Assembly: GCA_025353105.1 (NCBI GenBank)
Contig: JANXRG010000003.1
Span: 1-44,925, forward strand
Source: Verrucomicrobiota bacterium
GTDB taxonomy: Bacteria; Verrucomicrobiota; Verrucomicrobiia; Chthoniobacterales; SZAS-18
Direction: 5' to 3'
DNA: 44,925 nucleotides
Position 1 is the stretch's first letter. Each line of letters opens with the position of its first letter. The translations under genes and the position numbers were made by a program. This document shows, in pieces, positions 15,485 through 43,261 of this stretch. The notes below the pieces were generated by a model. That model was given only the letters and a program-made list of their open reading frames with translations. It made no database searches and was not told where the DNA came from.

Positions 15485-18337
15485 ATGACGGAGAAGCGGC
15501 AACTTGTGTTTGGTCACTTCCGGGTCGCCTCGCAGCCCGATGGCACGCCCATGGAGTTGGGGCGCGGCGCCATGGGCGTGACGTACAAGGCGTTCGATGA
15601 GCGGCTGCGCATCGACGTGGCCCTGAAAATCATCGCCCCCACGCAGATCGACAACCCGAAGGCGCAGGCGTCGTTCCTGCGCGAGGCTCGGGCGGCGGCA
15701 CGGGTGCATCATTCGAACGTGGCGAGCGTCGTATATCTCAACGACACGCCGGGGAATTTTTTCTACGCGATGGAGTTCGTCGAAGGCCAACCGCTGCGCG
15801 AATGGATGCGCGCGCAACACGTCGTGCCGCCCGTCACGGCCATTGCTCTGGCCATCCAGATCGCCCGCGGGCTCGAGGCCATCCACGAGCAGCACCTGGT
15901 CCATCGCGATCTGAAACCGGCCAACGTGATGCTGGTGAAGTCGCCGACCGCGGGCGGCACGGCGCGGCCAGTGTCCGACCCGGATGCCTGGAAGGTGAAG
16001 ATTATCGACTTCGGCCTGGCACGCGTGATTTCGGCGGACGGCTTTGGCGGCGTGGCGGCGACGCAGACCGCCGGCTTTCATGGCACGGCGCTCTACGCGA
16101 GTCCAGAGCAGTGCGAGGAGCGGACCGACCTCGACGGTCGCTCCGATTTTTACTCCCTCGGCTGTATTCTTTGGGAGATGTTGTGCGGCGCGCCGCCGTT
16201 TCGCGCGCGGACGCACCGGGCACTGATGAACCAGCACGTCTCGGAACCGGTCCCGCTCGACCGGCTTGCGCACGTGCCGCCGAGTCTGGCGGCGGTCGTG
16301 GCGCGGCTGCTGATCAAGGATCCGGTGAATCGTTTTCCGAATGCAGCCGCGCTGATCAAGGCGCTCGAGCGGGCGCGCGAAAAAATCGAAAGCGGCGAGG
16401 AAGTGGCCACGTCGCCCGAGGACACCACGGTCGATCCGGCGGGCGCGGTCGCATCCTCGGGCGCGCCGCGGCCACCGTCCAGCGGGATGCCCTTGCCGTC
16501 GTCGACCACGGGTGGATCGCGGAGGGATTTGTTCGTCGCCGCCGCCGCGGTGCTGGCGCTGCTCGTGCCCGGTTGGTTCATTTTTAACGGGCGAAAAATT
16601 GAGACGCCGCGCTCCGCCCCTGCGCCCGATCCGACAACGTCCGTTTCTGCCGCCAGCGCGCCCGCCACCCCCGCCTCGACCAACAAAAAACCTATTCCTT
16701 TACCGACCTTGGGCAGCATGAAAGGCTCGGTCGCCGTGCTGCCGTTCACGAACCTCAGCTCCGACAAGGACAGCGAGTATTTTGCGGCTGGCATGTATGA
16801 GGAGGTACTCGTCTCTTTGACGAAAATCCGCGACCTGCGTGTGATTTCGCGCACGGCCGTCCAGCGGTTCCAGGACGAAGGCGGTCGCAAACAGCGCGAG
16901 GTCGCCCGCGAGCTTGGCGTCGAAGCGGTTCTTACGGGCACGGTCAAGCGTTCCGGAAACCGAGTGCAGGTGGTGGCGCGTTTAATCGATCCCGAAACCG
17001 AGCAGAGCATCTGGACGGAATCGTACGACGAGGAACTGACGGATATCTTCGCGATCCAAGGTCAGATTGCCAGGGCGATCGCGAGCTCATCGCGGTCGAA
17101 TCTCACTCCCGCGGAGCGAACGGAGCTGGCGCGCCCGGTGATTGCGAACGCGACGGCTTACCCATTGTATATGAGGGCCCGCGGCCTGTACGCGGATTTT
17201 AGCGACCGGCGAAACTTGGATTCGGCTGAGACGGCATTGAGTTCGGCGGTCGAAGCGGACCCGAACTTCGCGTTGGCCCACGCCTGGCTGTCCATGTTAC
17301 ACACGACCGTCTACGATTGGGGTGAGCATTCGCCAGAGCGACTCGCTCTGGCCCTGAAATCAGGGGAAATGGCTTTGCGTCTTCAGCCTTCCCTGCCGGA
17401 AGGCCAGTTGGCCATGGCGATGTATTTTAGCCGGGGACTTCGAGACTACGTCCGAGCGCTGCCGCATTTCCAGCTGGCGTTGGAGGCAAGACCAAGCGAT
17501 GCGGAAGCGCACTATGAGTTGGCGGCTATGCAGCGCCGCGAGGGGAAATGGGCGGAGGCGGCGGAGAGATTTGAGCGTCTGGCGGAGTTGAATCCGTATG
17601 ACGATAAGAAGCAATACCAAGCGGCGAACACCTACGCGTTTATGCGTCGATACCAGGACTCGTGGCGGATCCTCGAAAGCGCGTTGAGCCGGATGCCGAA
17701 TTCTCTGCCGCTGAAAGTGCTCAAGGGAAACCTCTTCCTGGCGTGGAAGAACGACCTCGAGCCAATGCGGGACGATTTTGCAACGCGTCCGGCGACGGTG
17801 CCGACTCGAGATCTTTACGTGCGCGACAAAATTCAGCTGTTGCTGTTCGAACGGAAATTTGACGAGGCTTTGACAGAGCTTCGAAACAGCAAATTTCAAC
17901 TCTTCGAAGGTCAGGCTGAATACGTCACGAGGGATGGTCTGGAGGCGGAGATCCTGACCCAAGCCGCTAGATCCCTCGAGGCCCGCGCAATCTGGAAGCG
18001 CGCCTGTCGCGAATTGGCGCCACTGGTCGCGGCCCGTCCGAACGATACGAGGATTCGAATGGCGTACGCGGCTGCGCTTGCCGGAACGGGCGAAGACGCC
18101 AGAGAAGCGGGTCGCCAGGCGACGATCGTCACGGAAATCGTCCCGGTTAAGGCGGACGCCATGGATGGTCCGTTTTTTCAGACGGGCCTGGCCCTGGTCT
18201 GCCTGCGGACAAACCGGCTGGATGAGGCTCGGCAAATTGTGGCGCGGGTGCGAAAAAACCCCTCGATCTATTACGATTCAATGTTCAACCTGTCACCCGC
18301 TTGGGACGCGCTGCGTCCCGCCAAAACACCACCCTAA
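15485..18337 (+). CDS. Transmembrane Ser/Thr protein kinase with TolB-like and TPR regions
   Basis: A 950-residue Hanks-type kinase. The cytoplasmic kinase domain spans residues about 20-285, with all key motifs: GRGAMGVTYKAFD (Gly loop), VALKII (ATP lysine), HRDLKPANVML (catalytic loop), IDFGLA (Mg2+) and GTALYASPEQC. A Pro/Ser/Thr-rich linker leads to one transmembrane helix at about 347-367. Outside, residues about 412-535 form a TolB-N/FlgO-like domain as in adenylate cyclase-TPR proteins (GSVAVLPFTNLSSDKDSEYF, ARELGVEAVLTGTVKRSG). TPR helices fill the rest. It probably senses an envelope signal and phosphorylates cytoplasmic targets; substrates are unknown. It diverges from the secreted repeat protein. 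Confidence 0.93.
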   Translation: MTEKRQLVFGHFRVASQPDGTPMELGRGAMGVTYKAFDERLRIDVALKIIAPTQIDNPKAQASFLREARAAARVHHSNVASVVYLNDTPGNFFYAMEFVEGQPLREWMRAQHVVPPVTAIALAIQIARGLEAIHEQHLVHRDLKPANVMLVKSPTAGGTARPVSDPDAWKVKIIDFGLARVISADGFGGVAATQTAGFHGTALYASPEQCEERTDLDGRSDFYSLGCILWEMLCGAPPFRARTHRALMNQHVSEPVPLDRLAHVPPSLAAVVARLLIKDPVNRFPNAAALIKALERAREKIESGEEVATSPEDTTVDPAGAVASSGAPRPPSSGMPLPSSTTGGSRRDLFVAAAAVLALLVPGWFIFNGRKIETPRSAPAPDPTTSVSAASAPATPASTNKKPIPLPTLGSMKGSVAVLPFTNLSSDKDSEYFAAGMYEEVLVSLTKIRDLRVISRTAVQRFQDEGGRKQREVARELGVEAVLTGTVKRSGNRVQVVARLIDPETEQSIWTESYDEELTDIFAIQGQIARAIASSSRSNLTPAERTELARPVIANATAYPLYMRARGLYADFSDRRNLDSAETALSSAVEADPNFALAHAWLSMLHTTVYDWGEHSPERLALALKSGEMALRLQPSLPEGQLAMAMYFSRGLRDYVRALPHFQLALEARPSDAEAHYELAAMQRREGKWAEAAERFERLAELNPYDDKKQYQAANTYAFMRRYQDSWRILESALSRMPNSLPLKVLKGNLFLAWKNDLEPMRDDFATRPATVPTRDLYVRDKIQLLLFERKFDEALTELRNSKFQLFEGQAEYVTRDGLEAEILTQAARSLEARAIWKRACRELAPLVAARPNDTRIRMAYAAALAGTGEDAREAGRQATIVTEIVPVKADAMDGPFFQTGLALVCLRTNRLDEARQIVARVRKNPSIYYDSMFNLSPAWDALRPAKTPP

Positions 18338-31473: not shown

Positions 31474-31881
31474 TCAGGGAACAAGGAAAATTTTGCCTGA
31501 GTAGGGACACTTCACCTGTTCGCCGGGGGAGAATCCGCGCACGTCGACGTAACCCGCGGTCGGTTTGTAGGGGCTGGTGACGAAACCGGGCTTCCCGGCC
31601 ACCGGCGTGCCGATGGGAATCTCCCGAGCGAGCGTCGGAGCGCTGGACGGCAGTTGCGTGGTTTGAGAACTCGAGCTGCGCGGGACGGGCGTCGCCGGCG
31701 GGCGATAGACATCGGTGGGACTCACCGGCGCGACCGGCTCGTTCGGCAGAACCGTGGTCGGCATTTGCATGTAGTTCTCGTTGAAACGGAGCCGCGGCGG
31801 GTCGTCGTAGGACACCGTCTGACAGCCAGCGACGGCCAGCAACGAGCTGCAAGTGAGAATGGAAAAAACAGAACGGATCAT
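31474..31881 (-). CDS. Lipoprotein with C-terminal VDVRGFSPGEQV domain, copy 2
   Basis: A 135-residue lipoprotein with lipobox V-A-G-C (Cys20). A Pro/Ser-rich linker (about residues 40-90) follows. The C-terminal module is GTPVAGKPGFVTSPYKPTAG, then YVDVRGFSPGEQVKCPYSGK and a final FLVP. It is paralogous to the next gene downstream and retains a Cys in the KCPYSG turn. The family is not one I can name; the module may be a small beta domain. It is the likely first gene of the lipoprotein-lipoprotein-tyrA-aroA-cmk run. The ATG at 31879-31881 puts the signal peptide at the N-terminus. Confidence 0.82.
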   Translation of the reverse strand: MIRSVFSILTCSSLLAVAGCQTVSYDDPPRLRFNENYMQMPTTVLPNEPVAPVSPTDVYRPPATPVPRSSSSQTTQLPSSAPTLAREIPIGTPVAGKPGFVTSPYKPTAGYVDVRGFSPGEQVKCPYSGKIFLVP

Positions 31882-32023
31882 GATCGATGCAAGGCGTGCC
31901 CGAAACGGCGCCGACACGCAGCGTCATGTATCGCACGATGCGCGCGGTCACAACCGGATTCGTCGCCGCACGTCCAGTCGCGCGCATCCGTTTAAGAATT
32001 GCACGCCGCAAGAGATATCCGCC

Positions 32024-32052
32024 TTGACCCGATCCGTTGGGACAGGTACGGT
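32024..32052 (+). promoter_or_regulatory. Candidate sigma-70 promoter of tRNA-Pro
   Basis: TTGACC (32024-32029), a 17-nt spacer and TACGGT (32047-32052) lie upstream of the tRNA at 32069. The predicted start falls about 8-10 nt before the mature 5' end, leaving a short leader. The -35 box and spacer are near consensus and the -10 box is weaker. Confidence 0.55.
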
Positions 32053-32068
32053 CGGCATTCCGAGAAAT

Positions 32069-32145
32069 CGGGCTGTGGCTCAGCTTGGTAGAGCGCCTCG
32101 TTCGGGACGAGGAGGTCCAGGGTTCAAATCCCTGCAGCCCGACCA
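32069..32145 (+). tRNA. tRNA-Pro(CGG)
   Basis: A complete cloverleaf: acceptor CGGGCTG/CAGCCCG, D arm GCTCAGCTTGGTAGAGC, anticodon stem CCTCG/CGAGG with loop TTCGGGA (anticodon CGG, proline), and T arm CAGGG-TTCAAAT-CCCTG. Discriminator A and an encoded CCA end at 32145. The OmpA-domain gene starts about 43 nt downstream on the same strand. Confidence 0.97.
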
Positions 32146-32188
32146 CTCGGGGCTCGTCGACGGTCCCGCCCCTCCAGATTTTTCTCCT

Positions 32189-33220
32189 GTGCCAGCTGGT
32201 CGCGATCCGAACGAAACCTTCGCGAATGCGGGCGCCGGTACGCCCCATCGGATTCGCGTTCTGCCCCTTGTCCTCGTGGCCTTGGTCGTCATCGGCCTCG
32301 GATTTCTCATCGCTTGGGGCTTGAATCAGCTTTTACGCTCCGCCTTCACGCGCACGCTGGCCGCCTCGGCCGAGGCCGGCCCGGCGCCGACCGCGGCGCC
32401 CGCGGTGGGCCCCGTGCGAGAAACGCTTCCCGCGTCCCCGCCACCGGGGGACGTTCGCGTTGTCTCCGCCCAGCCCACGCTGCCGCCCACGGCGAGTCGC
32501 TCCGTTGATCCCGACCTCGTGCCCACCAGCGTCGCGGCTGGGCCGGTGGTGCAGAGTCTTCCATCCAATGACGGGGCGGTTGCGCCGGCCCCCAAGCCGT
32601 CCAGGCCGAGGGCGGAAACGACGATTGCCCCCTCGGTGGCTGCGGAGATCGCGCGTCGCGTCGAGGAAACGACCGCCCCGACCCCGCGGGCCTTTGCCGC
32701 CCTGGCGGCCGCACCCGCGCCGGCGGTACCGCCTGAGGTCATCGACACCAACCTGCGCAATCCGGAGAATGCGTTGATTAAGCAGGAGGTCCTCAAGCGC
32801 GTGGATCAGATGCCTGATCTTTCGCCGGAGAATCGCGACAAGCTTTACGCCCGCGTCGAGCGCACGCCGGGGATGGGGCGGGTGGCGACGATACTTTTTG
32901 ATACCGGGGAATCGCGGGTGCGTTCCACGGATATCGAACGGCTGCGCTCCGATTTGAGTTCCCCGGCCGCACAGCGGCTGGTCGATGACCCGACCGTTGT
33001 GCTCGTCGTGTTGGGCTACGCGGATCCCACCGGGGGCGCGGACTTGAACAAGACAATTTCGCAGGCCCGCGCCAATGCCGCCGTGACCGCCATGCGCGAC
33101 CGGCTCAAGCTTTCGAATGTGATGCACTCAGTGGCCATGGGAAGCTCCACGCTGTTTGGGGAAGGTCGCGATCAACTGCAAAAGAATCGCGTGGTTGAAG
33201 TCTGGGCGGTGATGCCGTGA
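32189..33220 (+). CDS. Membrane-anchored OmpA-domain (peptidoglycan-binding) protein
   Basis: A 343-residue protein. A single N-terminal transmembrane helix (VLPLVLVALVVIGLGFLIAW) is followed by a long Ala/Pro/Val-rich linker of about 140 residues. The C-terminal OmpA domain starts near VATILFDTGESRVRSTDIER and has the GYADPTGGADLNKTISQARA block and the closing KNRVVEVW. The Asp and Arg in these two blocks match those that hold diaminopimelate in peptidoglycan. It probably links the inner membrane to the cell wall, like MotB/TolR-type stators or anchors, but no partner gene is adjacent. The frame is open back through tRNA-Pro, so a GTG at 32189, after the tRNA, is the most reasonable start; this is uncertain. 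Confidence 0.8.
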   Translation: MPAGRDPNETFANAGAGTPHRIRVLPLVLVALVVIGLGFLIAWGLNQLLRSAFTRTLAASAEAGPAPTAAPAVGPVRETLPASPPPGDVRVVSAQPTLPPTASRSVDPDLVPTSVAAGPVVQSLPSNDGAVAPAPKPSRPRAETTIAPSVAAEIARRVEETTAPTPRAFAALAAAPAPAVPPEVIDTNLRNPENALIKQEVLKRVDQMPDLSPENRDKLYARVERTPGMGRVATILFDTGESRVRSTDIERLRSDLSSPAAQRLVDDPTVVLVVLGYADPTGGADLNKTISQARANAAVTAMRDRLKLSNVMHSVAMGSSTLFGEGRDQLQKNRVVEVWAVMP

Positions 33221-33302: not shown

Positions 33303-35741
33303 ATGAGTGGCATTGCCCCCGATCCAGCTTCACCCGCCTCCTCGCCTTCACCGGCTGACGCGCCCCGGCTTTCAATTCTTTCGGGTCTGCCGGCGGGTCA
33401 AATCGCGCTGCGAGCGGGCACGCTGCTGATCGGCCGGTTGGCGGAGTCGGACATCCAACTCGATCACCCGGAAATCTCGCGCTATCACTGCAAGCTGCAT
33501 TGGAATGGGCAAGACGCGCAGCTCGAGGATCTCGGCAGCCGTCGCGGGACGCGACTCAACGGCGCCGTGCTCCCGAAAGGCGCGCTGGCACCGCTGCACT
33601 CCGGCGACCGCATCGACGTCGGACCGGTCGCGCTGCAATTCGGGGGCGAAGGCGCGATGCCGGCTCCCGCTCCGGCCGCGCGTCCGGAATCAGCGCCGGT
33701 GGGCGTTTCGATCGCGCGGGTCGTGATGGGCGGTCATGAAGTGTCGATGATTCCGCTGCGCGACAAGGTGGTCTTCGGCCGCGCGAGCGAATGCGAAGTG
33801 GCGATGAACGACGCCGGCGTCTCGCGTCAGCACGCGAGCGTCGAGCGCAGTTCGACCGGGTTTCTCGTCACGGATCTGCGCAGCCGCGGCGGGTCGTTCG
33901 TCAACGGCCACCGTTTCGAGCGCCACGAACTTGTCATCGGCGACCAGTTGCAGATCGGCCCGTTTTTTTTCCGCTTCGATGGGCGGCAGCTCGTGCGCAC
34001 GCGCGGCGGCGCGGGCGTCACGATCGAGGGCCGCGAGGTGACGAAGCGCGTCGGAGCCCTCACGATTCTCGACCACGTTTCGCTCCGCATCGAGCGCGGA
34101 CAGTTCGTCTGTATTCTCGGTCCCTCTGGCAGCGGCAAGTCCACGCTCCTCGACGCGATCACGGGCCTGCGCCCCGCGACGGGCGGCACGGTTTTGTACG
34201 ACGGCATGGATTTGGTGCGCGAGTATGAACAACTCCGCTCGATGCTCGGGTACGTACCGCAGGACGATATTGTCCATCCCGAGTTGACCGTTCGGGCGGC
34301 GCTCCTCTACAGCGCGCAACTCCGCCTTCCGGCCGGCACGCCGCAGCACGAGATCGAGAAGCTCGTCGATCAGACGATCGTCCAGCTTGGCTTGCAGGAG
34401 CGGGCGCAAATTCCGATCGGCCGGCTCTCGGGCGGCCAGCGCAAGCGCGTGAGCGTCGGCGTGGAATTGCTCGGGCGTCCCAGCGTGTTGTTCCTCGACG
34501 AGCCGACCAGTGGGCTCGATCCCGCGGCCGAGTTCAAGATGATGGAACTGCTGCGCCATCTCGCGGACGGTGGTTGCACCGTCGTCTGCACCACCCACCT
34601 GATGGAAAACGTCTACCTTGCGGACAAACTTTTTGTCATCGCCGAGGGCAAGCTCGTATTTTCGGGCGGACCGCAGGAGACGCGCGATCATTTCGGCGTG
34701 CAGAAACTTACGGCGCTCTACGATCGACTTTCCGAGCGCCCCGCCACCGACTGGCAGCGAGATTTTGAACGCGTGAAGGCGGAGCGCGCGGCGTTGGAGG
34801 AAACGGGATCCGCGGCGATGCCGGCGACGGCCACCACCTCCAGCGCGCTTTCGATTCCGGCCGTTACACCGGCGAAGTCGTCGCCGGCGCTGCCCATCCT
34901 GCTGCGGCGCCAATGGTCCATCCTGACGTCGGACATCAAGAATTTTCTCATCCTCTTCGGCCAGCCCGTGGTGATCGGCGTCCTGGTCGCTTTGGTCACC
35001 AACGAAAGCTCGCTCAACTTATTTTTTGCCTACCTCTCGGCGTTGTGGTTCGGCTGCAGCAATTCGGCGCAGGAAATTGTGAAGGAAATCGCCATCTACC
35101 GGCGCGAGCGCATGGTTGGACTCGGACGAAATTCCTACCTGCTGTCGAAATTCCTTCTCGTCGGCTCGCTGACTGCGGTGCAGAGCCTCATTTTACTTTT
35201 CGTCCTGGAGGGTGGCCACTGGCTAGTGCACACCATCCAGCCGAATAACAATGAGGGCCGCGAGTTCCTGATGGGCATCGCGAGCTGGCAGGCGGGAGCC
35301 CTGATCATGATCTCGCTGGCCGCGGTCGGCATTGGCCTCGCCATCTCGGCGTTGAGCAAGACCACGATGCAGGCGGTCATGATCGTGCCACTCGCACTCA
35401 TTCCGCAGATTCTTTTCTCGGGGCTGGTGGTCAAGGCCCCCGAAATGAAGCCCCTCGCTTATTTTGTCACCCAGTTCTCGCCCAGCTACGCGGCTCAGAC
35501 CATCATGGACCTTAGCTGTTTCCACCGGGAGTTTCCGACGGGGTTGCGCGCCGCGAACAACCGTCCCGGCTTTGATCACGTCAGTTTTTTGAACCAGCGT
35601 GCGACCGGCAAGCGGTTGATGGCGGGCGACCAATTTTATGCCGGTGCGCGGGGCTGGCTGGCGGCCTTCAAGCTCCTCGCCTGGACGGCCGCAGGCTATG
35701 TGGTGTCGTTCTTCGGTTTGAAGGCCCGCGAGCGGGGGTGA
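33303..35741 (+). CDS. ABC transporter with two FHA domains, ATPase and ABC-2 permease in one chain
   Basis: An 812-residue half-transporter. Two FHA domains come first: about 25-100 (LIGRLAESDIQLDHPEISRY, SRRGTRLNG) and about 140-225 (FGRASECEVAMNDAGVSRQH, SRGGSFVNG). Both keep the GR, S-R-x-H and NG residues that bind phospho-threonine. The ATPase (about 240-470) has Walker A GPSGSGKST, signature LSGGQRKRVSVG, Walker B VLFLDEPTSGLD and the H-loop TTHLMENV. The ABC-2/ABCG-like permease follows, with about six helices from residue 550. It is an inner-membrane transporter, probably an exporter; the substrate is unknown. FHA domains suggest control by Ser/Thr kinases such as the one at 37581. 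Confidence 0.94.
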   Translation: MSGIAPDPASPASSPSPADAPRLSILSGLPAGQIALRAGTLLIGRLAESDIQLDHPEISRYHCKLHWNGQDAQLEDLGSRRGTRLNGAVLPKGALAPLHSGDRIDVGPVALQFGGEGAMPAPAPAARPESAPVGVSIARVVMGGHEVSMIPLRDKVVFGRASECEVAMNDAGVSRQHASVERSSTGFLVTDLRSRGGSFVNGHRFERHELVIGDQLQIGPFFFRFDGRQLVRTRGGAGVTIEGREVTKRVGALTILDHVSLRIERGQFVCILGPSGSGKSTLLDAITGLRPATGGTVLYDGMDLVREYEQLRSMLGYVPQDDIVHPELTVRAALLYSAQLRLPAGTPQHEIEKLVDQTIVQLGLQERAQIPIGRLSGGQRKRVSVGVELLGRPSVLFLDEPTSGLDPAAEFKMMELLRHLADGGCTVVCTTHLMENVYLADKLFVIAEGKLVFSGGPQETRDHFGVQKLTALYDRLSERPATDWQRDFERVKAERAALEETGSAAMPATATTSSALSIPAVTPAKSSPALPILLRRQWSILTSDIKNFLILFGQPVVIGVLVALVTNESSLNLFFAYLSALWFGCSNSAQEIVKEIAIYRRERMVGLGRNSYLLSKFLLVGSLTAVQSLILLFVLEGGHWLVHTIQPNNNEGREFLMGIASWQAGALIMISLAAVGIGLAISALSKTTMQAVMIVPLALIPQILFSGLVVKAPEMKPLAYFVTQFSPSYAAQTIMDLSCFHREFPTGLRAANNRPGFDHVSFLNQRATGKRLMAGDQFYAGARGWLAAFKLLAWTAAGYVVSFFGLKARERG

Positions 35742-35749
35742 ACGCGGGA

Positions 35750-36520
35750 ATGAAGACCAAGGCCGAAATTGTCTCCGACTGGCTTCCGCGCTACACCGGC
35801 ACGCCCGCCTCCAGCTTCGCGAAATACGTGCTGCTGACGAACTTCACAAATTACGTGAAGATGTTTGCCGACTGGCATGGCGTACCCGTGCGGGGCGTGG
35901 ACCGGCCGATTCCCAACGCAACCGCGGACGGGATCTCGATCCTGAATTTCGGGATGGGGAGCGCGAGCGCGGCGACGGTGATGGATCTCCTCAGCGCAAT
36001 CGAACCGAAGGCCGTGCTTTTCCTCGGCAAATGCGGCGGTCTCAAGCGCAAGAACAAGCTCGGCGATTTGATCCTCCCCATCGCGGCGATTCGCGGCGAG
36101 GGCACGTCCGACGATTATTTTCCGCCGGAGGTTCCCGCGCTGCCGGCCTTCTCTCTGCAGAAGGCGATTTCCACGACGATTCGCAATCACCAGCGTGATT
36201 ACTGGACCGGCACGGTGTACACGACGAACCGCCGCGTCTGGGAGCACGACGAGAAGTTCAAGAAATATCTGGCGAAGGTGCGCTGCATGGCGGTCGACAT
36301 GGAAACGGCGACGATTTTCACCACCGGATTCCACAACGAGATTCCGACCGGCGCTCTGCTGCTCGTATCCGATCAACCAATGGTGCCCGAGGGCGTCAAG
36401 ACGGCGGCGAGCGACGAACTGGTGACCTCGAAATTTGTGGAGGCGCACCTCCGCATCGGGATGGATTCGCTCAGCGAGCTCATCAACAACGGCCTGACCG
36501 TGAAGCACCTGCGGTTTTAG
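35750..36520 (+). CDS. AMP nucleosidase (PNP/UDP phosphorylase fold)
   Basis: A 256-residue protein of the nucleoside phosphorylase superfamily, closest in pattern to the short AMP nucleosidases that split AMP into adenine and ribose-5-phosphate. Family blocks are ISILNFGMGSASAATVMDLL, VLFLGKCGGLKRKNKLGD and the active-site CMAVDMETATIF, followed by ALLLVSDQPMVPEGVK with the catalytic Asp in SDQP. It lacks the N-terminal regulatory domain of the long E. coli enzyme. Substrate choice is inferred from the family and needs assay. It starts 9 nt after the transporter stop. A GTG at 35738 overlapping that stop is an alternative start, so the two are probably one transcript. It is convergent with the FHA-cyclase gene. 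Confidence 0.82.
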   Translation: MKTKAEIVSDWLPRYTGTPASSFAKYVLLTNFTNYVKMFADWHGVPVRGVDRPIPNATADGISILNFGMGSASAATVMDLLSAIEPKAVLFLGKCGGLKRKNKLGDLILPIAAIRGEGTSDDYFPPEVPALPAFSLQKAISTTIRNHQRDYWTGTVYTTNRRVWEHDEKFKKYLAKVRCMAVDMETATIFTTGFHNEIPTGALLLVSDQPMVPEGVKTAASDELVTSKFVEAHLRIGMDSLSELINNGLTVKHLRF

Positions 36521-36541
36521 TTTTTTAGACCGGCTCGGCGC

Positions 36542-37489
36542 TCAGAACTCGAAGTCCGGCTTCATGCCGAACACCCGGACGAGCTGGGCCTTGCCCTTGA
36601 GGGCCTTCTCGCCCAGATCGACGAAGATTTCGCGGTCGGGCATCAGATCGACGATGCGCTCGGAAAGCAGGAGCTTCTGCTTCAGTTCCTTCATGATGCT
36701 CTCGAGCCGGAAGGCGGTGTTCACGGCGTCGCCGATGATCGTCGCGTCGCGTTGGGCGACGAGGCCGATATTGCTAAAGCTGACCTTGCCGTGGTGGAGG
36801 GCCACGCCGACCTCGAACTGGTTTTCGTTCGGCCACTTCATCTTGGCCGCCATGCGGAGCATCGAGCGGCCGGCCTCAAAGGCGGCGTTGCATTCCGGCG
36901 AGGGGCCGTCGGGGGTGCTTTCCCCGGGCGTGATCGTGCCGGGCTGCCAATAGGCGAGGATGGCGTCGCCGATGAACTTGTCGATGATGCCGCCGCTGGC
37001 CTGGACGGTATTGCCGGCCTCGCGGAACCACTGGCCGAGAATCTGCGAGAGGCCTTCGGCGGGGATTTTCTCGGACTGGGTGCTGAAGCCGCGGATGTCG
37101 CACACCAGGATGGCGGCGGGGCGGACGCTCTGGGCGTGCTGATCGGTGCTGGCCGCGAGGGTGGCCTCGATGGCATCCTCGCCGCCATGCTCGGCTTCTT
37201 GTTCAAAAAGGATCTCGTTGTTTGCGATGCGAATTTTCGCACCGTTGACGAGGGTGACGGGCAGGACGACGCGCTGATCGTTGACGTAGGTGCCGTTGCG
37301 GCTCCCGAGGTCCATGATCTGGTACTCGTAGCCATTGTGGCAGCGAATGATGGCGTGTTGCCGGCTGATGTGCGCGCTCGTGTTAAGGCACACAGTGTTG
37401 TCGCTCGTGCGCCCGATGGTCGCCGTATTCTGGATCGGGACCTCGAATTTTTCGCCGGTAACGGTATGGATGCGGAGTTTGGCGGCCAT
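36542..37489 (-). CDS. FHA-domain class III adenylate/guanylate cyclase
   Basis: A 315-residue soluble protein. The FHA domain (about 5-90) has IGRTSDNTVCL, AHISRQHAII and GSRNGTYVN, with all phospho-threonine-binding positions. The class III cyclase domain follows (about 125-310). The two metal-binding aspartates are in LVCDIRGFS and GDAILAYW. A purine-binding Lys lies in IIDKFIGD and the matching Thr in ATIIGDAVNTAFRLES, which also supplies the transition-state Asn and Arg. The Lys/Thr pair favours ATP, so cAMP is the likely product. It diverges from the kinase-pseudokinase gene over 91 nt, making that kinase a natural candidate for its FHA ligand. Confidence 0.93.
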   Translation of the reverse strand: MAAKLRIHTVTGEKFEVPIQNTATIGRTSDNTVCLNTSAHISRQHAIIRCHNGYEYQIMDLGSRNGTYVNDQRVVLPVTLVNGAKIRIANNEILFEQEAEHGGEDAIEATLAASTDQHAQSVRPAAILVCDIRGFSTQSEKIPAEGLSQILGQWFREAGNTVQASGGIIDKFIGDAILAYWQPGTITPGESTPDGPSPECNAAFEAGRSMLRMAAKMKWPNENQFEVGVALHHGKVSFSNIGLVAQRDATIIGDAVNTAFRLESIMKELKQKLLLSERIVDLMPDREIFVDLGEKALKGKAQLVRVFGMKPDFEF

Positions 37490-37580
37490 GGGGAAGAGAC
37501 CCTGTCGATATAAACAATGTGAACCGGCCCGGCAAATCTTATATTAGCATGAACTAAGCCCTGTTCTCTCGCGAGGACTT

Positions 37581-40500
37581 GTGGCACACAATGACGCGCT
37601 CCCGATGGCCGAAATCGAAAAATTTCATCATTACGAGGTCTTGCGACGCGACGACGGCTCGCTTTACGAGCTCGGCCGCGGGGCGATGGGCATCACGTAC
37701 AAGGCTTTTGACACGAATCTGCGGTGCACCGTGGCCCTGAAGGTCATTAATGGCGCCTACCTGAACAGCGAGGTTGCACGCCAGCGCTTTGTGCGGGAGG
37801 CGCGGGCGGCGGCGCGGCTGAGCCACCCGAACGTCGCCGCCGTCTTCCACCTCGGCGAGGACGTCAATTCATACTTCTACGCGATGGAGTTTATCGCGGG
37901 CGAAACGGTCGAGGACCGCGTCAAACGCGTCGGCCCGCTGAACGCCGCCAACGCGCTGGAAATCACCCTGCAGGTGGCCAAGGCGCTGCGGGCGGCCGAC
38001 CGCGAGGGCCTCGTGCACCGCGACATCAAGCCCGCGAACCTCATGCTCATCACCAACGATGACGAGGGCGACACGTTCGTGAAGGTCATCGACTTCGGCC
38101 TCGCCAAGTCGGCCGTCAAAGAAGTCGGCGACGCGACCGTAACCATCGCCGGATTCGTCGGTACGCCCCATTTTGCCAGCCCGGAGCAGCTCGAGGAACA
38201 CGAACTCGATGTCCGCTCGGACATTTATTCCCTCGGCATCACGTTGTGGTGGATGCTGACGGGCAAACCGCCTTTTTCGGGCGCGCTCGCGGCCATCATG
38301 CGGGACCACCTGCAACGGCCGCCGCCGTTTGAAATGCTCGCCGGCCAGCCGCCCGAGGTCGTCACGCTGCTCCGGCGCATGCTCGAGAAGGAACCGGGCA
38401 AACGCCAGCAAAACGCCACAGAATTGCGCAAGGAGATTGAGGCCGCCCAAAAGACCGTCGCCGCCTCCGATGGTTTCGCCACCAAGGTCGGCAAGCCGGC
38501 GACCAGCGGGGACGCGTTTGCGACGCAAGCGCTGACCGCGACGCCCTCGACCACGACCTCGACCGTCTCCCCGACGACGATGAGCAGTGCGCCGGCGCCG
38601 ACGGTGGGGGTGGTCCTTTCGCGCCGCTACCGGCTGCTGCGCGATTGCGGCGAGAGCACCAGTGGCCGGACGTTTCAGGCTCTCGACCTCGATCACAATC
38701 GACTGGTCGCGCTCAAGGTCATCCATCCCGCGCTGCTCGCGGCGCCTGACGCGCAGGCGCGCATCGAGCGCGCGGTGGCGGCCACCCAAGCGGCCGCCCA
38801 TCCGGGATTGATCGCCATTTACTCTTTGGAGCGCACGCCCGAGGGCCATGCGATTTTAGTTTCGGAATGGGTGAACGGATTCACGCTGCTCGATTTGTTG
38901 CGCGGGCGGAGCCGCCTGCCTGCCGGCGAGGTCGCGCGCCTGCTCGAACCGCTCGCCGCGGCCGCGGACCACGCGGCGACCGGGAATGTCGACTCGCTCG
39001 AGTTAGCGCTTAACCAAGTGATGGTGGGGTTCCAGGTTGACTTCGAAGTTGGCTCCCACCCGGATTTTCTGACGGCGCCGATCGCCGAATGGCCCGATTT
39101 CATGCCGAAAGTATCGACCGTGTCGGTGGCGACGGGGAACGAGGCCAGCACCTACCTCCCCGAGCAGACCATGGTCCCGGCGGCGGGTGCCGGCGGCACG
39201 GGTGCGGGCGGCACGGCGGATTATCCGCGGCGACTGGCGATGATCGCATTCGAGCTTTTGAGCGGATCGCCGCCACCGCAAACGACGCCCGGCGGTCCCG
39301 TGCGCATCGCACCGCTGCCCAGCTTGAACGAGGAAGGCAACAACGTGCTGCGCCGTGCGCTGGCTCCAGGGGGATTTGGCACTTCGGTGCAGTTTGCCGA
39401 AGCATTGAAATCGGGCGCGGGCACCAGTGTGCCGACGGTGTCGGCCCGCGCGACCGTGCCCGTCAAAGCTCCAAGCGTAACGCCGTTGACTCCGCCTGGC
39501 GGCGGCTCGCCGGCGTCCAAGCCGCCCCTCATCCCGATCCTCATCGGCGTGGGTGTGTTGGTGCTCGGTGGCGCCGCGTATTTTTTCCTGGGCCGCGGCA
39601 AGCCGGGTCCGGGGCCGGTCTCGCCCACGCCCACGCCGGCGGTGGCCGTCGCGACTTCGGTGCCATCGGTTGCGCCGTCCGCCGCGCCCACGCCGGTCGT
39701 GACCGCACCGCCCACGCAGGTCGTGATCGCCCCGACCGCGGCGCCCACCGGTGCGTCGCAGCCATCGCGGCGCGAACGATTCCAAGCCGCGTTGGAAGAG
39801 GCGCGCAAGACTGAGGCGAGCAACCCGGTCGAGCAGCTCAATGCCTACTTGAAGCTCTCCGAGGATTTTCCGGAACAGGATCAAGGCCTGAGCCGGCTCG
39901 ATTCCGTGATCGCCAACCTTGTCGAGTCGGCCAAGACGCCGGAGACGCGAGCGCGGCGGTTCCAGCAGGTGAAAGGGCAGCTGGAGCGCGCGGCGAATCT
40001 TGGCTCCGAGTCCGCGCTGGTCTTTCTCGGGGAGCAATTGTCGCCGGTCGATGCCGCCGCGTCCGCGAGCTACTACCAGCGGGCCGCGGAAAAGGGCAAC
40101 ACGCGGTCGATGGTGGCGCTGGGCAACCTGCTCTTCAAGGGCGGCCCCAAGCTGCCGGAACGGCCCGAGGACGCATCGCGTTGGTATCGCGCGGCCAGCG
40201 ACAAGGGCGATGCCAAGGGCAAGGTGTTGCTGGCCGAATGCTACCGCGACGGCAAGGGCGGCGTGGCGCGGGATTTTTTCCAAGCGGCGATGTTGCTCAA
40301 CGAAGCGCTCGCGCTCGAGCCGAACGATGCCCGCGCGCTCGACCTGCTTGCGGTCGCCTACGAGCGCGGGGAGGGTGTGAAACTCGACACGCGGAAAGCC
40401 TTTGAATTGATGGACCGAGCCGTGCAATTGGGAAATCCGAACTCGATGGGCAACCTGGGCGTATACTACATGAAGGGTCTCGGCATGGCGCGCCCCGATC

Positions 40501-40709
40501 CGGTCAAGGCGGCGCAACTCTTCAAGCAGGGCGCGGATCTCGACAGTGGCCTGAGCATGTTTTTCCTGGCGCAGTGCTACGAGGGCGGGCTGGGCGTGGC
40601 GAAAAACATCGCGGAGGCGCGGTCCTATTACCGCGCGGCGGCCGAGCGCGGAGTGCCGCCGGCGATGCGCTGGTGCGAGGAACACAACGTGCCCTACACG
40701 AAGCGCTGA
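37581..40709 (+). CDS. Transmembrane Ser/Thr kinase with pseudokinase domain and Sel1 repeats
   Basis: A 1042-residue protein. The first kinase domain (about 25-285) is intact: GRGAMGITYKAFD, VALKVI, HRDIKPANLML, IDFGLA and GTPHFASPEQ. From about 348 a second kinase-like domain begins (RYRLLRDCGESTSGRTFQAL, LVALKVIHPAL). It has no HRD or DFG motif and a degenerate catalytic loop (GNVDSLELALNQVMV), so it is a pseudokinase. A transmembrane helix at about 649-670 (ILIGVGVLVLGGAAYFFLG) leads to a Pro/Thr-rich linker and Sel1 repeats from about 810 (YYQRAAEKGNTRSMVALGNL and similar). A GTG at 37581 has a GAGG ribosome site; an ATG at 37605 is the alternative. The external Sel1 part may sense the envelope. 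Confidence 0.94.
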   Translation: MAHNDALPMAEIEKFHHYEVLRRDDGSLYELGRGAMGITYKAFDTNLRCTVALKVINGAYLNSEVARQRFVREARAAARLSHPNVAAVFHLGEDVNSYFYAMEFIAGETVEDRVKRVGPLNAANALEITLQVAKALRAADREGLVHRDIKPANLMLITNDDEGDTFVKVIDFGLAKSAVKEVGDATVTIAGFVGTPHFASPEQLEEHELDVRSDIYSLGITLWWMLTGKPPFSGALAAIMRDHLQRPPPFEMLAGQPPEVVTLLRRMLEKEPGKRQQNATELRKEIEAAQKTVAASDGFATKVGKPATSGDAFATQALTATPSTTTSTVSPTTMSSAPAPTVGVVLSRRYRLLRDCGESTSGRTFQALDLDHNRLVALKVIHPALLAAPDAQARIERAVAATQAAAHPGLIAIYSLERTPEGHAILVSEWVNGFTLLDLLRGRSRLPAGEVARLLEPLAAAADHAATGNVDSLELALNQVMVGFQVDFEVGSHPDFLTAPIAEWPDFMPKVSTVSVATGNEASTYLPEQTMVPAAGAGGTGAGGTADYPRRLAMIAFELLSGSPPPQTTPGGPVRIAPLPSLNEEGNNVLRRALAPGGFGTSVQFAEALKSGAGTSVPTVSARATVPVKAPSVTPLTPPGGGSPASKPPLIPILIGVGVLVLGGAAYFFLGRGKPGPGPVSPTPTPAVAVATSVPSVAPSAAPTPVVTAPPTQVVIAPTAAPTGASQPSRRERFQAALEEARKTEASNPVEQLNAYLKLSEDFPEQDQGLSRLDSVIANLVESAKTPETRARRFQQVKGQLERAANLGSESALVFLGEQLSPVDAAASASYYQRAAEKGNTRSMVALGNLLFKGGPKLPERPEDASRWYRAASDKGDAKGKVLLAECYRDGKGGVARDFFQAAMLLNEALALEPNDARALDLLAVAYERGEGVKLDTRKAFELMDRAVQLGNPNSMGNLGVYYMKGLGMARPDPVKAAQLFKQGADLDSGLSMFFLAQCYEGGLGVAKNIAEARSYYRAAAERGVPPAMRWCEEHNVPYTKR

Positions 40710-40758
40710 CCCGATTCGCGCTTGCGCGGATCGCGTTCGTTCCTACGGTGCGGCGTCG

Positions 40759-41292
40759 ATGCGTACGGATGATTTTGAATTTGCGCTGGAGAACACGCGG
40801 GTCCTGCTCGCGCCGCGGCGCAAGATTCAGACGTTTGGTGCCACGACGTTTCAATTTCATCTGCTGACCGAGACCATGGATCGGCCGGATTGGATTCGGG
40901 TCCGGCGTGGCACCATCGAGGCGGAGAAGCCCGCGATTTTCACCCTTGAAAACGCCGCGCGGCTCATGCTCGAAGGCTTTGGCGAGCAGGCGGAGGCCTT
41001 CGCCGACGCGCTCCGCCGGCTGCGCGATCCGAATTCCCCGCAGGCCGCGCTGCTCCGTTACGGCTTCCAGGTGCGGCGTTCGCGCTTGGTCGAGGATTTG
41101 GTCAGCGGTTCGATCGAGGCACTCGGGGATCGCGTCTGCCGCGAGGTGAGCAACGGCAGCGATCCGCTTTCGGCTGTGCTGGTCGGCGTCGAGGATGGTT
41201 GGGAAGTCGGGCTGCTCAAGTTCACGCTGGATCTCGTCGCGGCGTCCGGTCCCGGAAACCTTGAGGACTTCCGCCGCGGCGCCGGGTTGTAG
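40759..41292 (+). CDS. Conserved-looking hypothetical protein, 177 aa
   Basis: I do not recognise the family. It is a soluble protein with an N-terminal beta-rich half (FEFALENTRVLLAPRRKIQT, FGATTFQFHLLTET, DWIRVRRGTIEAEKP) and a helical C-terminal half (AARLMLEGFGEQAEAFADAL, RRSRLVEDLVSGSIEALGDR). There is no signal peptide or membrane segment. It lies 49 nt after the kinase stop and 13 nt before the LysM gene, all on plus. It may therefore belong to the kinase transcript and be a substrate or partner of it, which is an inference from position. Confidence 0.75.
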   Translation: MRTDDFEFALENTRVLLAPRRKIQTFGATTFQFHLLTETMDRPDWIRVRRGTIEAEKPAIFTLENAARLMLEGFGEQAEAFADALRRLRDPNSPQAALLRYGFQVRRSRLVEDLVSGSIEALGDRVCREVSNGSDPLSAVLVGVEDGWEVGLLKFTLDLVAASGPGNLEDFRRGAGL

Positions 41293-41305
41293 ACATCTTC
41301 CCCAC

Positions 41306-42166
41306 ATGAAGTTCGCCAAGATCGTCATTCTCGTGGTCCTCTGTCTCGGCGTCTTCGGCGGCGGCGGATATCTCGCGTATCGCAACCTGATCCTGCCCGC
41401 GCAGCCGAGCGCCCGGGAGATCGACGCTCAGAGGGCCGCCGCACTGCCACCCACGCCGCCGCCCGATCCCGCGGGTCCCGAACTGGCGAAGGTGCAGGCG
41501 CTGCGCAAGGCCAAGAAACCGGCCGAAGCGCGCGAATTGCTCGCGGCCATCCTCGCCAATTATCCGAACTCACCACGCATCGACGAGGCGCGCACCGCGC
41601 TCGGTGAGATGAATGCGGACATGGCGCTATCCACCGCACCGTCGCCCGACAAGGTCGAGTACGTCGTGAAGCCCGGGGATTCGCTCGACAAGATCGCGCG
41701 GCAGTTCAAGTCGAGTAGCGAACTGATCATGCGTTCGAATAATCTCGTGAACACGATCATCCAGCCCGGCCAGCGCCTGGCGATTTTTCAGCCGGAATTC
41801 TCGCTGGAAATTTACCTCGCCGAGAAACGCGTGGTCCTGCTGCAACACGGGAAGTTTTTCAAGCAATTCGCGATCGTGTCGGCCAGCCTGCCCGGCGGCA
41901 CCAAGCCGGTCGAGACGAAGACCCGAATCGCGGAGAAGGCGGCGTTTCGCGACGGCAAGCGCGTGACGTTCGGCACCAAGGAATACGCCGGCAGTGCGCG
42001 CTGGATTATCCTGGCGCAGCCGGGCTACACCATCTTTGCCGAGACGCCCGCCGGAACCCCGGGTGCCGCCGCCAAGCCCCCGACCGGCCTCGGATTATCG
42101 GAAGGCGACATGGAGGAACTGCACGCTCTCGTCGGCAACAGCCAGCCGGTGACCATTTTCCCCTGA
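41306..42166 (+). CDS. Membrane-anchored LysM protein with cysteine-less L,D-transpeptidase-like domain
   Basis: A 286-residue protein with an N-terminal anchor (FAKIVILVVLCLGVFGGGGY), a short TPR-like helical pair (KVQALRKAKKPAEARELLAA) and one LysM domain (EYVVKPGDSLDKIARQFKSS, then a final PGQRLAIF). The C-terminal domain follows the YkuD fold order: FSLEIYLAEKRVVLLQHGKF, then a glycine turn and ending GLGLSEGDMEELHALVGNSQ. Where active enzymes have SHGC-(I/V)-R the sequence reads PTGLGLSEG, so the nucleophilic cysteine and its histidine are missing. It should bind peptidoglycan without transferring it. It is last in the kinase-led run. Confidence 0.85.
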   Translation: MKFAKIVILVVLCLGVFGGGGYLAYRNLILPAQPSAREIDAQRAAALPPTPPPDPAGPELAKVQALRKAKKPAEARELLAAILANYPNSPRIDEARTALGEMNADMALSTAPSPDKVEYVVKPGDSLDKIARQFKSSSELIMRSNNLVNTIIQPGQRLAIFQPEFSLEIYLAEKRVVLLQHGKFFKQFAIVSASLPGGTKPVETKTRIAEKAAFRDGKRVTFGTKEYAGSARWIILAQPGYTIFAETPAGTPGAAAKPPTGLGLSEGDMEELHALVGNSQPVTIFP

Positions 42167-42301: not shown

Positions 42302-43261
42302 ATGACTGTCGCCCCGCTCGAATTCGAAAAGCCCGTGCTCGAGCTCGAGAAGAAGCTGGAGGATCTGAAGCGTCATTTGAAGGGGCACGAGGTCGACGCC
42401 GACCCCGAGGTGAAACGCATCTCGATCCGCATCTTGGAGATGAAGAAGGATCTCTTCGAGAACCTCACGCCATGGCAGCGCGTGCAGATTGCCCGGCACA
42501 CGTCGCGGCCGTACGCACTCGATTATCTCGCGAACATCTTCGAAAACTTTGTCGAGCTGCGCGGCGATCGTCTGTACGGCGAGGATCGCGCCATGCCGGG
42601 CGGATTCGCCACCATTGGCGGCCATTCGTGTGTGGTGGTCGGCCACCAGAAAGGCCGCGAGACCAAGGAGAACATCCTGCGCAATTTCGGCAGCGCGAAT
42701 CCGGAGGGCTACCGCAAGGCGCTGCGCCTGATGAAGCTGGCGGAAAAATTTGGCCTCCCGGTCATCACGATGATCGACACGCCCGGAGCGTACCCCGGGG
42801 TGGGCGCGGAGGAACGGCACATCGCCGAGGCCATCGCGGTGAACTTGCGCGAAATGATGATGCTCGAGACGCCGACGATTGCGTGCGTGATCGGCGAGGG
42901 CGGCAGCGGGGGCGCACTGGGCATTGGCGTGGCGGACCGCGTCTTGATCCTGGAGAACGCCTATTACTCGGTCATCAGCCCCGAGGGTTGCGCGGCGATC
43001 CTCTGGAAGCACCGCAGCTTCGCGCCCGAGGCGGCGGCGGCCTTGAAACTCAGTTCGCCGGATCTGAAGGCCTTCGGCATGGTGGACGACGTCGTGCCCG
43101 AGCCTCCCGGCGGCGCCCATCGCGATCCTGCGACGGCCGCGGAAAATTTGAAGCAGGCGATCTTGAAGCACCTCCGCGAACTGCTCCCGATGTCCAAGAA
43201 GAAGCTGCTCAACGCGCGCTACGCGAAATTCCGGAAGTTCGGCCTTTACGCAAACGCTTGA
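42302..43261 (+). CDS. accA: Acetyl-CoA carboxylase carboxyltransferase subunit alpha
   Basis: A 319-residue subunit of normal length. With AccD it moves the carboxyl group from biotin to acetyl-CoA, giving malonyl-CoA for fatty acid synthesis. The coiled N-terminal helix (LEFEKPVLELEKKLEDLKRH) is typical. Further family blocks are WQRVQIARHTSRPYALDYL, RGDRLYGEDRAMPGG, GYRKALRLMKLAEKFGLPVI, DTPGAYPGVGAEERHIAEAI and the oxyanion-hole GEGGSGGALGIGVADRV, plus SPEGCAAILWK. The start at ATG 42302 is well supported. accD is not in the window. No gene upstream is functionally related. It is convergent with the permease gene. Confidence 0.97.
   Translation: MTVAPLEFEKPVLELEKKLEDLKRHLKGHEVDADPEVKRISIRILEMKKDLFENLTPWQRVQIARHTSRPYALDYLANIFENFVELRGDRLYGEDRAMPGGFATIGGHSCVVVGHQKGRETKENILRNFGSANPEGYRKALRLMKLAEKFGLPVITMIDTPGAYPGVGAEERHIAEAIAVNLREMMMLETPTIACVIGEGGSGGALGIGVADRVLILENAYYSVISPEGCAAILWKHRSFAPEAAAALKLSSPDLKAFGMVDDVVPEPPGGAHRDPATAAENLKQAILKHLRELLPMSKKKLLNARYAKFRKFGLYANA

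Follow-up and report, generated by a model that had tools for sequence, protein, structure and literature searches.

Results

The window, by which we mean the whole stretch of DNA that was analysed, is a complete contig of 44,925 bases in the 3.72 Mb, 121-contig assembly of a member of the Chthoniobacterales (Verrucomicrobiota), an order of soil bacteria. It was placed in this order because its relatives among named genomes are Chthoniobacter flavus, a Terrimicrobiaceae MAG and further MAGs of Spartobacteria/Verrucomicrobia. A sequence-only reading had united an FHA-bearing ABC exporter, an AMP nucleosidase, an FHA-cyclase, a Hanks-type kinase, an uncharacterized protein (UNK) and a LysM protein in one phospho-threonine signalling module. 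The existence and position of all six genes were borne out by Pfam, NCBIfam and the open reading frames (Table 1). That reading had left out the strand of the cyclase, which is transcribed from the minus strand so that it faces the exporter and the nucleosidase and diverges from the kinase. It had also omitted an OmpA-like gene upstream (ending at 33220) and, downstream, accA, a housekeeping gene that marks the other operon.

Table 1. Features of the locus and its flanks, with positions in the window
Feature	Position	Strand	Basis and remarks
OmpA-like envelope protein	32150..33220	+	Start approximate; weak Pfam OmpA match
ABC-2 type exporter, two N-terminal FHA domains	33303..35741	+	Pfam; orthologue alignment
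AMP nucleosidase, short PRK07115 type	35750..36520	+	NCBIfam; judged outside the conserved block
FHA + class III adenylate cyclase	36542..37489	-	Pfam, PDB matches; hub of the conserved block
Divergent intergenic region, cyclase/kinase	37490..37604	.	Gene starts from orthologue alignment
Hanks-type membrane kinase	37605..40709	+	Pfam; alignments
Uncharacterized protein of the UNK-LysM-accA operon	40759..41292	+	Outside the block
LysM protein of the UNK-LysM-accA operon	about 41303..42166	+	Pfam LysM; outside the block
accA, acetyl-CoA carboxylase carboxyltransferase alpha	42302..43261	+	NCBIfam 460 bits vs cut-off 357

Orthologues of the kinase begin at the ATG at 37605 and not at the GTG at 37581, and the divergent intergenic region is likely a promoter region shared by cyclase and kinase. 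The orthologues of the AMP nucleosidase begin at the ATG at 35750, which makes the GTG at 35738 an unlikely start. The longest OmpA-like open reading frame (31853-33220) overlaps a tRNA-Pro gene (32069-32145), and its true start is therefore placed after the tRNA.

FHA domains are few in this genome. Four matches were found in the whole assembly, three of them at this locus, and the fourth is part of a kinase. The genome is rich in Hanks kinase genes (about 38) and class III cyclases (15), so that their mere presence is unremarkable; what is notable is that the same neighbours recur in other families. Nine open frames carry a cNMP-binding domain and are possible cAMP receptors. At 15485-18337, the window encodes a second Hanks kinase, which has TPR repeats as well as a FlgO-like domain and is unlinked to the FHA block. 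Another contig of the genome (G000:C119, 26385-45237) combines three Hanks kinases with five matches to class III cyclases in about 19 kb.

The cyclase protein consists of an FHA domain (residues 24-88) and a class III adenylate cyclase domain (119-303; Pfam), and its PDB matches are the photoactivated adenylyl cyclase OaPAC and the FHA domains of EmbR and GarA (E 1e-8 for GarA). By the published motif definition (PMC1262709), its FHA domain has the GR, SxxH and NG motifs together with the Asn of the NGT loop, as in readers of phospho-threonine. R27, S42, H45 and N65 of this domain are identical in 38/38 aligned orthologues, as are D131, K171, D175, T250, N257 and R261 of the cyclase domain, which include the two metal-binding Asp, the Lys and Asp/Thr for adenine and the transition-state Asn and Arg of class III enzymes. 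Lys and Thr at the positions that recognize the base are the adenylate-specific set of class III cyclases. From this and from the alignment of K and T with OaPAC, we predict that the substrate is ATP. The structure model of the protein (pLDDT 57, FHA part unresolved) was too poor for a fold search. In family f9, three loci (L153, L155, L158) encode a possible cAMP receptor about 2-4.5 kb from the cyclase on its upstream side: a histidine kinase whose N-terminal domain is of the cyclic-nucleotide-binding type.

The exporter has the Rv1747-type chain order, with two FHA domains (about 42-107 and about 157-224), a nucleotide-binding domain (NBD, 256-403) and a transmembrane domain (TMD, 532-732) on one polypeptide (Pfam, alignment). 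In both FHA domains GR, S, H and NG are invariant, and the Asn of the NGT loop is replaced by R/W/G in FHA1 and by G/A/S in FHA2. The GR, SxxH and NG motifs of FHA2 are retained in 15/15 aligned orthologues. Two orthologues (L163, L178) lack FHA1 and keep FHA2, which suggests that FHA2 is the essential reader of the exporter. The linker between the FHA domains is about 25 residues long and has no Thr in the window protein; four other two-FHA members also lack Thr in this linker. The exporter is not in an operon with the kinase, which lies beyond the cyclase or is unlinked. Directly upstream of the exporter, an OmpA-like orthologue is found at L096, L098, L100, L146, L154, L163 and L178, and we regard this gene as a loosely attached partner.

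The kinase starts with an active-type kinase domain carrying GxGxxG, the catalytic Lys, HRD and DFG (alignments). A Thr-rich linker, a second kinase-like domain, one transmembrane segment and Sel1 repeats follow, the repeats being predicted to lie outside the cytoplasm. In the window protein, the second kinase-like domain is devoid of HRD and DFG; the f11 orthologues have no such domain at all. The linker before the membrane is poorly conserved save for one short Thr-containing motif, [DE]-x-F-x-T-hydrophobic, shared by the majority of the linked kinases in f1, f4 and f11. It is matched by 1/37 kinases of the window genome, the one being the block kinase. The pattern was drawn post hoc from these same sequences, with low leave-one-out scores for the f1 members; as a docking site the motif is thus suggestive, a lead on which we do not rely. 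Loci of f4, f5 and f11 (e.g., L146 in f4 and L145 in f11) have a gene for a small putative lipoprotein after the kinase.

Conservation across the order

Orthologues were searched for in 213 Chthoniobacterales genomes, and the neighbourhoods of the cyclase were then mapped with the window proteins. The FHA-cyclase is present in 40/213 genomes. Of the roughly 38 genomes that could be assessed, 19 (families f1, f4, f5, f6 and f11) have a kinase orthologue divergently upstream of the cyclase, at a spacing of about 90-220 bp. In 12 genomes (f4, f7, f9, f10 and, in the window only, f1) exporter and cyclase are tail-to-tail, the side and orientation of the exporter being constant in 12/12. Kinase and exporter are the only neighbours within 9 kb to reach five taxonomic families; with shadow ORFs set aside, the others reach three at most. 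Conserved adjacency in related genomes, which the sequence-only reading had named as the check on its module, was thus found for three of its genes: kinase and FHA-exporter each pair with the FHA-cyclase in five families, and the residues of the FHA and cyclase domains are intact. The AMP nucleosidase, the uncharacterized protein and the LysM protein were not supported as members.

The full three-gene block is confined to the window, Chthoniobacter flavus Ellin428 (G025) and G009. Strict orthologues of the exporter are present in 36/213 genomes; 28 genomes have both cyclase and exporter, 12 the cyclase only, eight the exporter only and 165 neither (Fisher p about 1e-18, a statistic that ignores shared descent). 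The two genes co-occur also when they are unlinked. On a tree of 38 cyclase sequences, adjacency to the kinase changes about four times and adjacency to the exporter about seven times. In f7, f9 and f10, the cyclase and often the exporter are kept and an unrelated gene occupies the position of the kinase; in f11, kinase and cyclase are kept and no full exporter orthologue adjoins them. Neither kinase nor exporter was the neighbour of any of eight FHA-cyclases belonging to other orders of the class, which makes the arrangement a feature of the Chthoniobacterales.

In every other genome of the window's family that has the cyclase, the same kinase is retained in the divergent position upstream of it, and the exporter is either on a different contig or separated from the cyclase by kilobases at least. 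A comparison restricted to the family would wrongly have dismissed the block; the order-wide search showed the arrangement elsewhere. In G001, of the same genus, and in G003, the kinase-cyclase pair is inverted relative to the UNK-LysM-accA operon as compared with the window, and a block of aroA, tyrA, OmpA-like gene and exporter is syntenic in the window, G003 and partly G002. Within the family, the simplest account of these two observations is that the window re-formed the exporter-cyclase junction; over the whole order, the simplest is that the junction is ancestral. If it is instead the product of a misassembly, the error must by chance have copied an arrangement found in eleven other assemblies.

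Genes outside the block

The AMP nucleosidase is a clear member of its family (PRK07115, 431 bits vs cut-off 264; AMN-like, 341 bits; NCBIfam). It was rejected as a member of the block, and hence of the module to which it had been assigned: it is found in 8/213 genomes of the order, adjoins the exporter only in the window and is absent from all other block loci. Its orthologues (G001:C32, G143:C43, G128:C34, G129:C168) are 83-85% identical whether they come from the genus of the window or from a distant family. Such even identity in near and distant relatives suggests recent transfer, and this is a sporadic gene that was probably acquired horizontally.

The uncharacterized and LysM proteins, also counted into the module at first, belong to a separate operon. 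Their genes are adjacent in 7/7 genomes of the family, with accA next wherever the locus reaches. The operon is present even in G004, a genome that lacks an FHA-cyclase orthologue and in which the exporter is represented by a fragment at a contig edge only. The uncharacterized protein (40759-41292; homologues L253-L258) occurs as one full-length copy per genome (7/7) in the family, has no Pfam or NCBIfam match and gave a structure model too poor for a fold search (pLDDT 52).

Discussion

The reading towards which we lean, with slightly better than even confidence, is that the core of the locus is a divergent unit of a Hanks kinase and an FHA-cyclase, that phospho-threonine on the kinase recruits the cyclase, and that the FHA exporter is a looser, second client. 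Recruitment of the cyclase is suggested by the divergent pairing, by the invariant FHA pocket and by the small number of FHA domains in the genome. The exporter is proposed as second client because of its recurrent adjacency, its co-occurrence with the cyclase and the precedent of PknF and Rv1747 discussed below. That one kinase serves two FHA clients is a reasonable inference from the conserved neighbours and the intact residues. The points against this reading are that the full trio is found in three genomes only, that the FHA domains of the exporter lack the Asn of the NGT loop, that f7, f9 and f10 have another gene at the position of the kinase, that the pair of f11 has no full exporter orthologue next to it, that exporter and cyclase are apart in the other genomes of the window's family, that the linker motif is statistically weak, and that the FHA-cyclases of other orders have neither neighbour.

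From the genes and their domains, the intact residues, the recurrent order and the co-occurrence, we infer the following possible course of events. With its variable outer part, the membrane kinase would detect a signal from the envelope or the periplasm and then phosphorylate itself on Thr, the candidate sites being the activation loop and the Thr-containing linker that precedes the membrane. This phospho-threonine would be where the cyclase docks with its canonical FHA domain, and docking may bring cyclase dimers to the membrane and thereby switch cAMP synthesis, the sign of this effect being part of the model. The FHA domains of the exporter may read the same or related phospho-threonines and in this way gate the export of a putative envelope component. 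The more extended version, in which a single membrane kinase uses phospho-threonine to recruit a cAMP-forming enzyme as well as an ABC exporter, and in which the exporter-cyclase junction may even have been re-formed in the window, is put forward tentatively, at clearly less than even confidence. If the junction was indeed re-formed after loss in the family, this would point to selection for contact.

The exporter could be a historical neighbour of a functional kinase-cyclase pair and have a phospho-threonine partner of its own, such as itself or another kinase. The pair is found without the exporter in f11, f5 and f6, the exporter is unlinked in the other f1 genomes and in several f4 and f10 genomes, and its FHA loops are non-canonical; the same-side, tail-to-tail order in five families and the strong co-occurrence even of unlinked genes speak against a purely historical association, which we consider unlikely. 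It is the kinase, conversely, that would be interchangeable if cyclase and exporter were stable co-clients for which any of about 40 Hanks kinases may supply the phospho-threonine. Cyclases of f9, f7 and f10 do lack the block kinase upstream, several of them with an adjoining exporter, and the window genome has about 38 kinase genes to choose from. Yet the same kinase subfamily is kept divergently in f1, f4, f5, f6 and f11 with about four changes of state on the tree, and an interchangeable kinase seems improbable to us.

Gene order may also be inherited vertically without any shared function, the FHA domains then acting in unrelated pathways. This would agree with the restriction of the arrangement to one order, such neighbours being missing in other orders, and with co-occurrence figures that ignore phylogeny. 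Against it, the other neighbours have decayed to three families or fewer while kinase and exporter persist in five, and two FHA proteins side by side with a kinase are a nonrandom association in a genome with four FHA domains, so that we judge inheritance alone to be quite improbable. Finally, the original module in full, with the AMP nucleosidase clearing AMP from cAMP turnover, has in its favor the spacing of 8 bp between the exporter gene and the nucleosidase gene that follows it in the window, where the two are probably co-transcribed. The sporadic distribution and the identity pattern of this gene leave such a role only the faintest probability.

Among known systems, the closest to the kinase and exporter is the two-gene operon of PknF and Rv1747 in Mycobacterium tuberculosis (PMC3908365, PMC5549992, PMC9312465), in which PknF phosphorylates the two-FHA ABC exporter encoded with it (PMC3908365). 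In both cases a Hanks kinase gene is found near an exporter with the order FHA-FHA-NBD-TMD on one polypeptide, and the FHA domains that link kinase and exporter in Rv1747 are proposed to do the same here. The published operon, however, has no cyclase, and Rv1747, which PknF phosphorylates, has a disordered inter-FHA linker, unlike the linker of about 25 residues without Thr in the exporter of the window. Because this exporter has neither a Thr-bearing inter-FHA linker nor a common operon with the kinase, we do not class it with PknF-Rv1747 systems; by analogy, it may work like one.

The cyclase has relatives of another kind. CyaD of Anabaena, which we take to be an FHA-class III adenylate cyclase, combines the same two domains, and to our knowledge such cyclases have not been paired with a kinase or an exporter gene. 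The FHA domain of the block cyclase is related in sequence to those of the actinobacterial GarA and OdhI, which control enzymes downstream of Ser/Thr kinases (PknB, PknG); these are small FHA proteins acting on metabolic enzymes and not on cyclases. Hanks kinases are physically joined to cyclase-like domains in Pkn2 of Myxococcus xanthus (PMC1262709) and in the TOMM kinase/cyclase fusions (TIGR03903). These, in contrast, are single polypeptides without an FHA reader, and the nucleotide specificity of the cyclase-like domain of Pkn2 is ambiguous. No kinase/FHA-cyclase gene pair was found in the literature searched. FHA-cyclases and kinase-FHA pairs are each known separately, and we know of no description of a direct wiring of Hanks-type phosphorylation to cAMP through an FHA reader. 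The earlier statement that no such system had been described therefore stands for the whole set within the literature searched and gives way for the kinase-exporter half, of which PknF-Rv1747 is a close precedent.

In conclusion, recruitment of a cyclase and an exporter by one kinase would, if true, couple eukaryote-like phosphorylation to second-messenger synthesis and to envelope export. Chthoniobacterales genomes hold dozens of Hanks kinases without a known client, and the conserved pair names one kinase together with its likely client. The presence of the block in the genome of an isolate, Chthoniobacter flavus Ellin428, makes the question of kinase and client directly testable.
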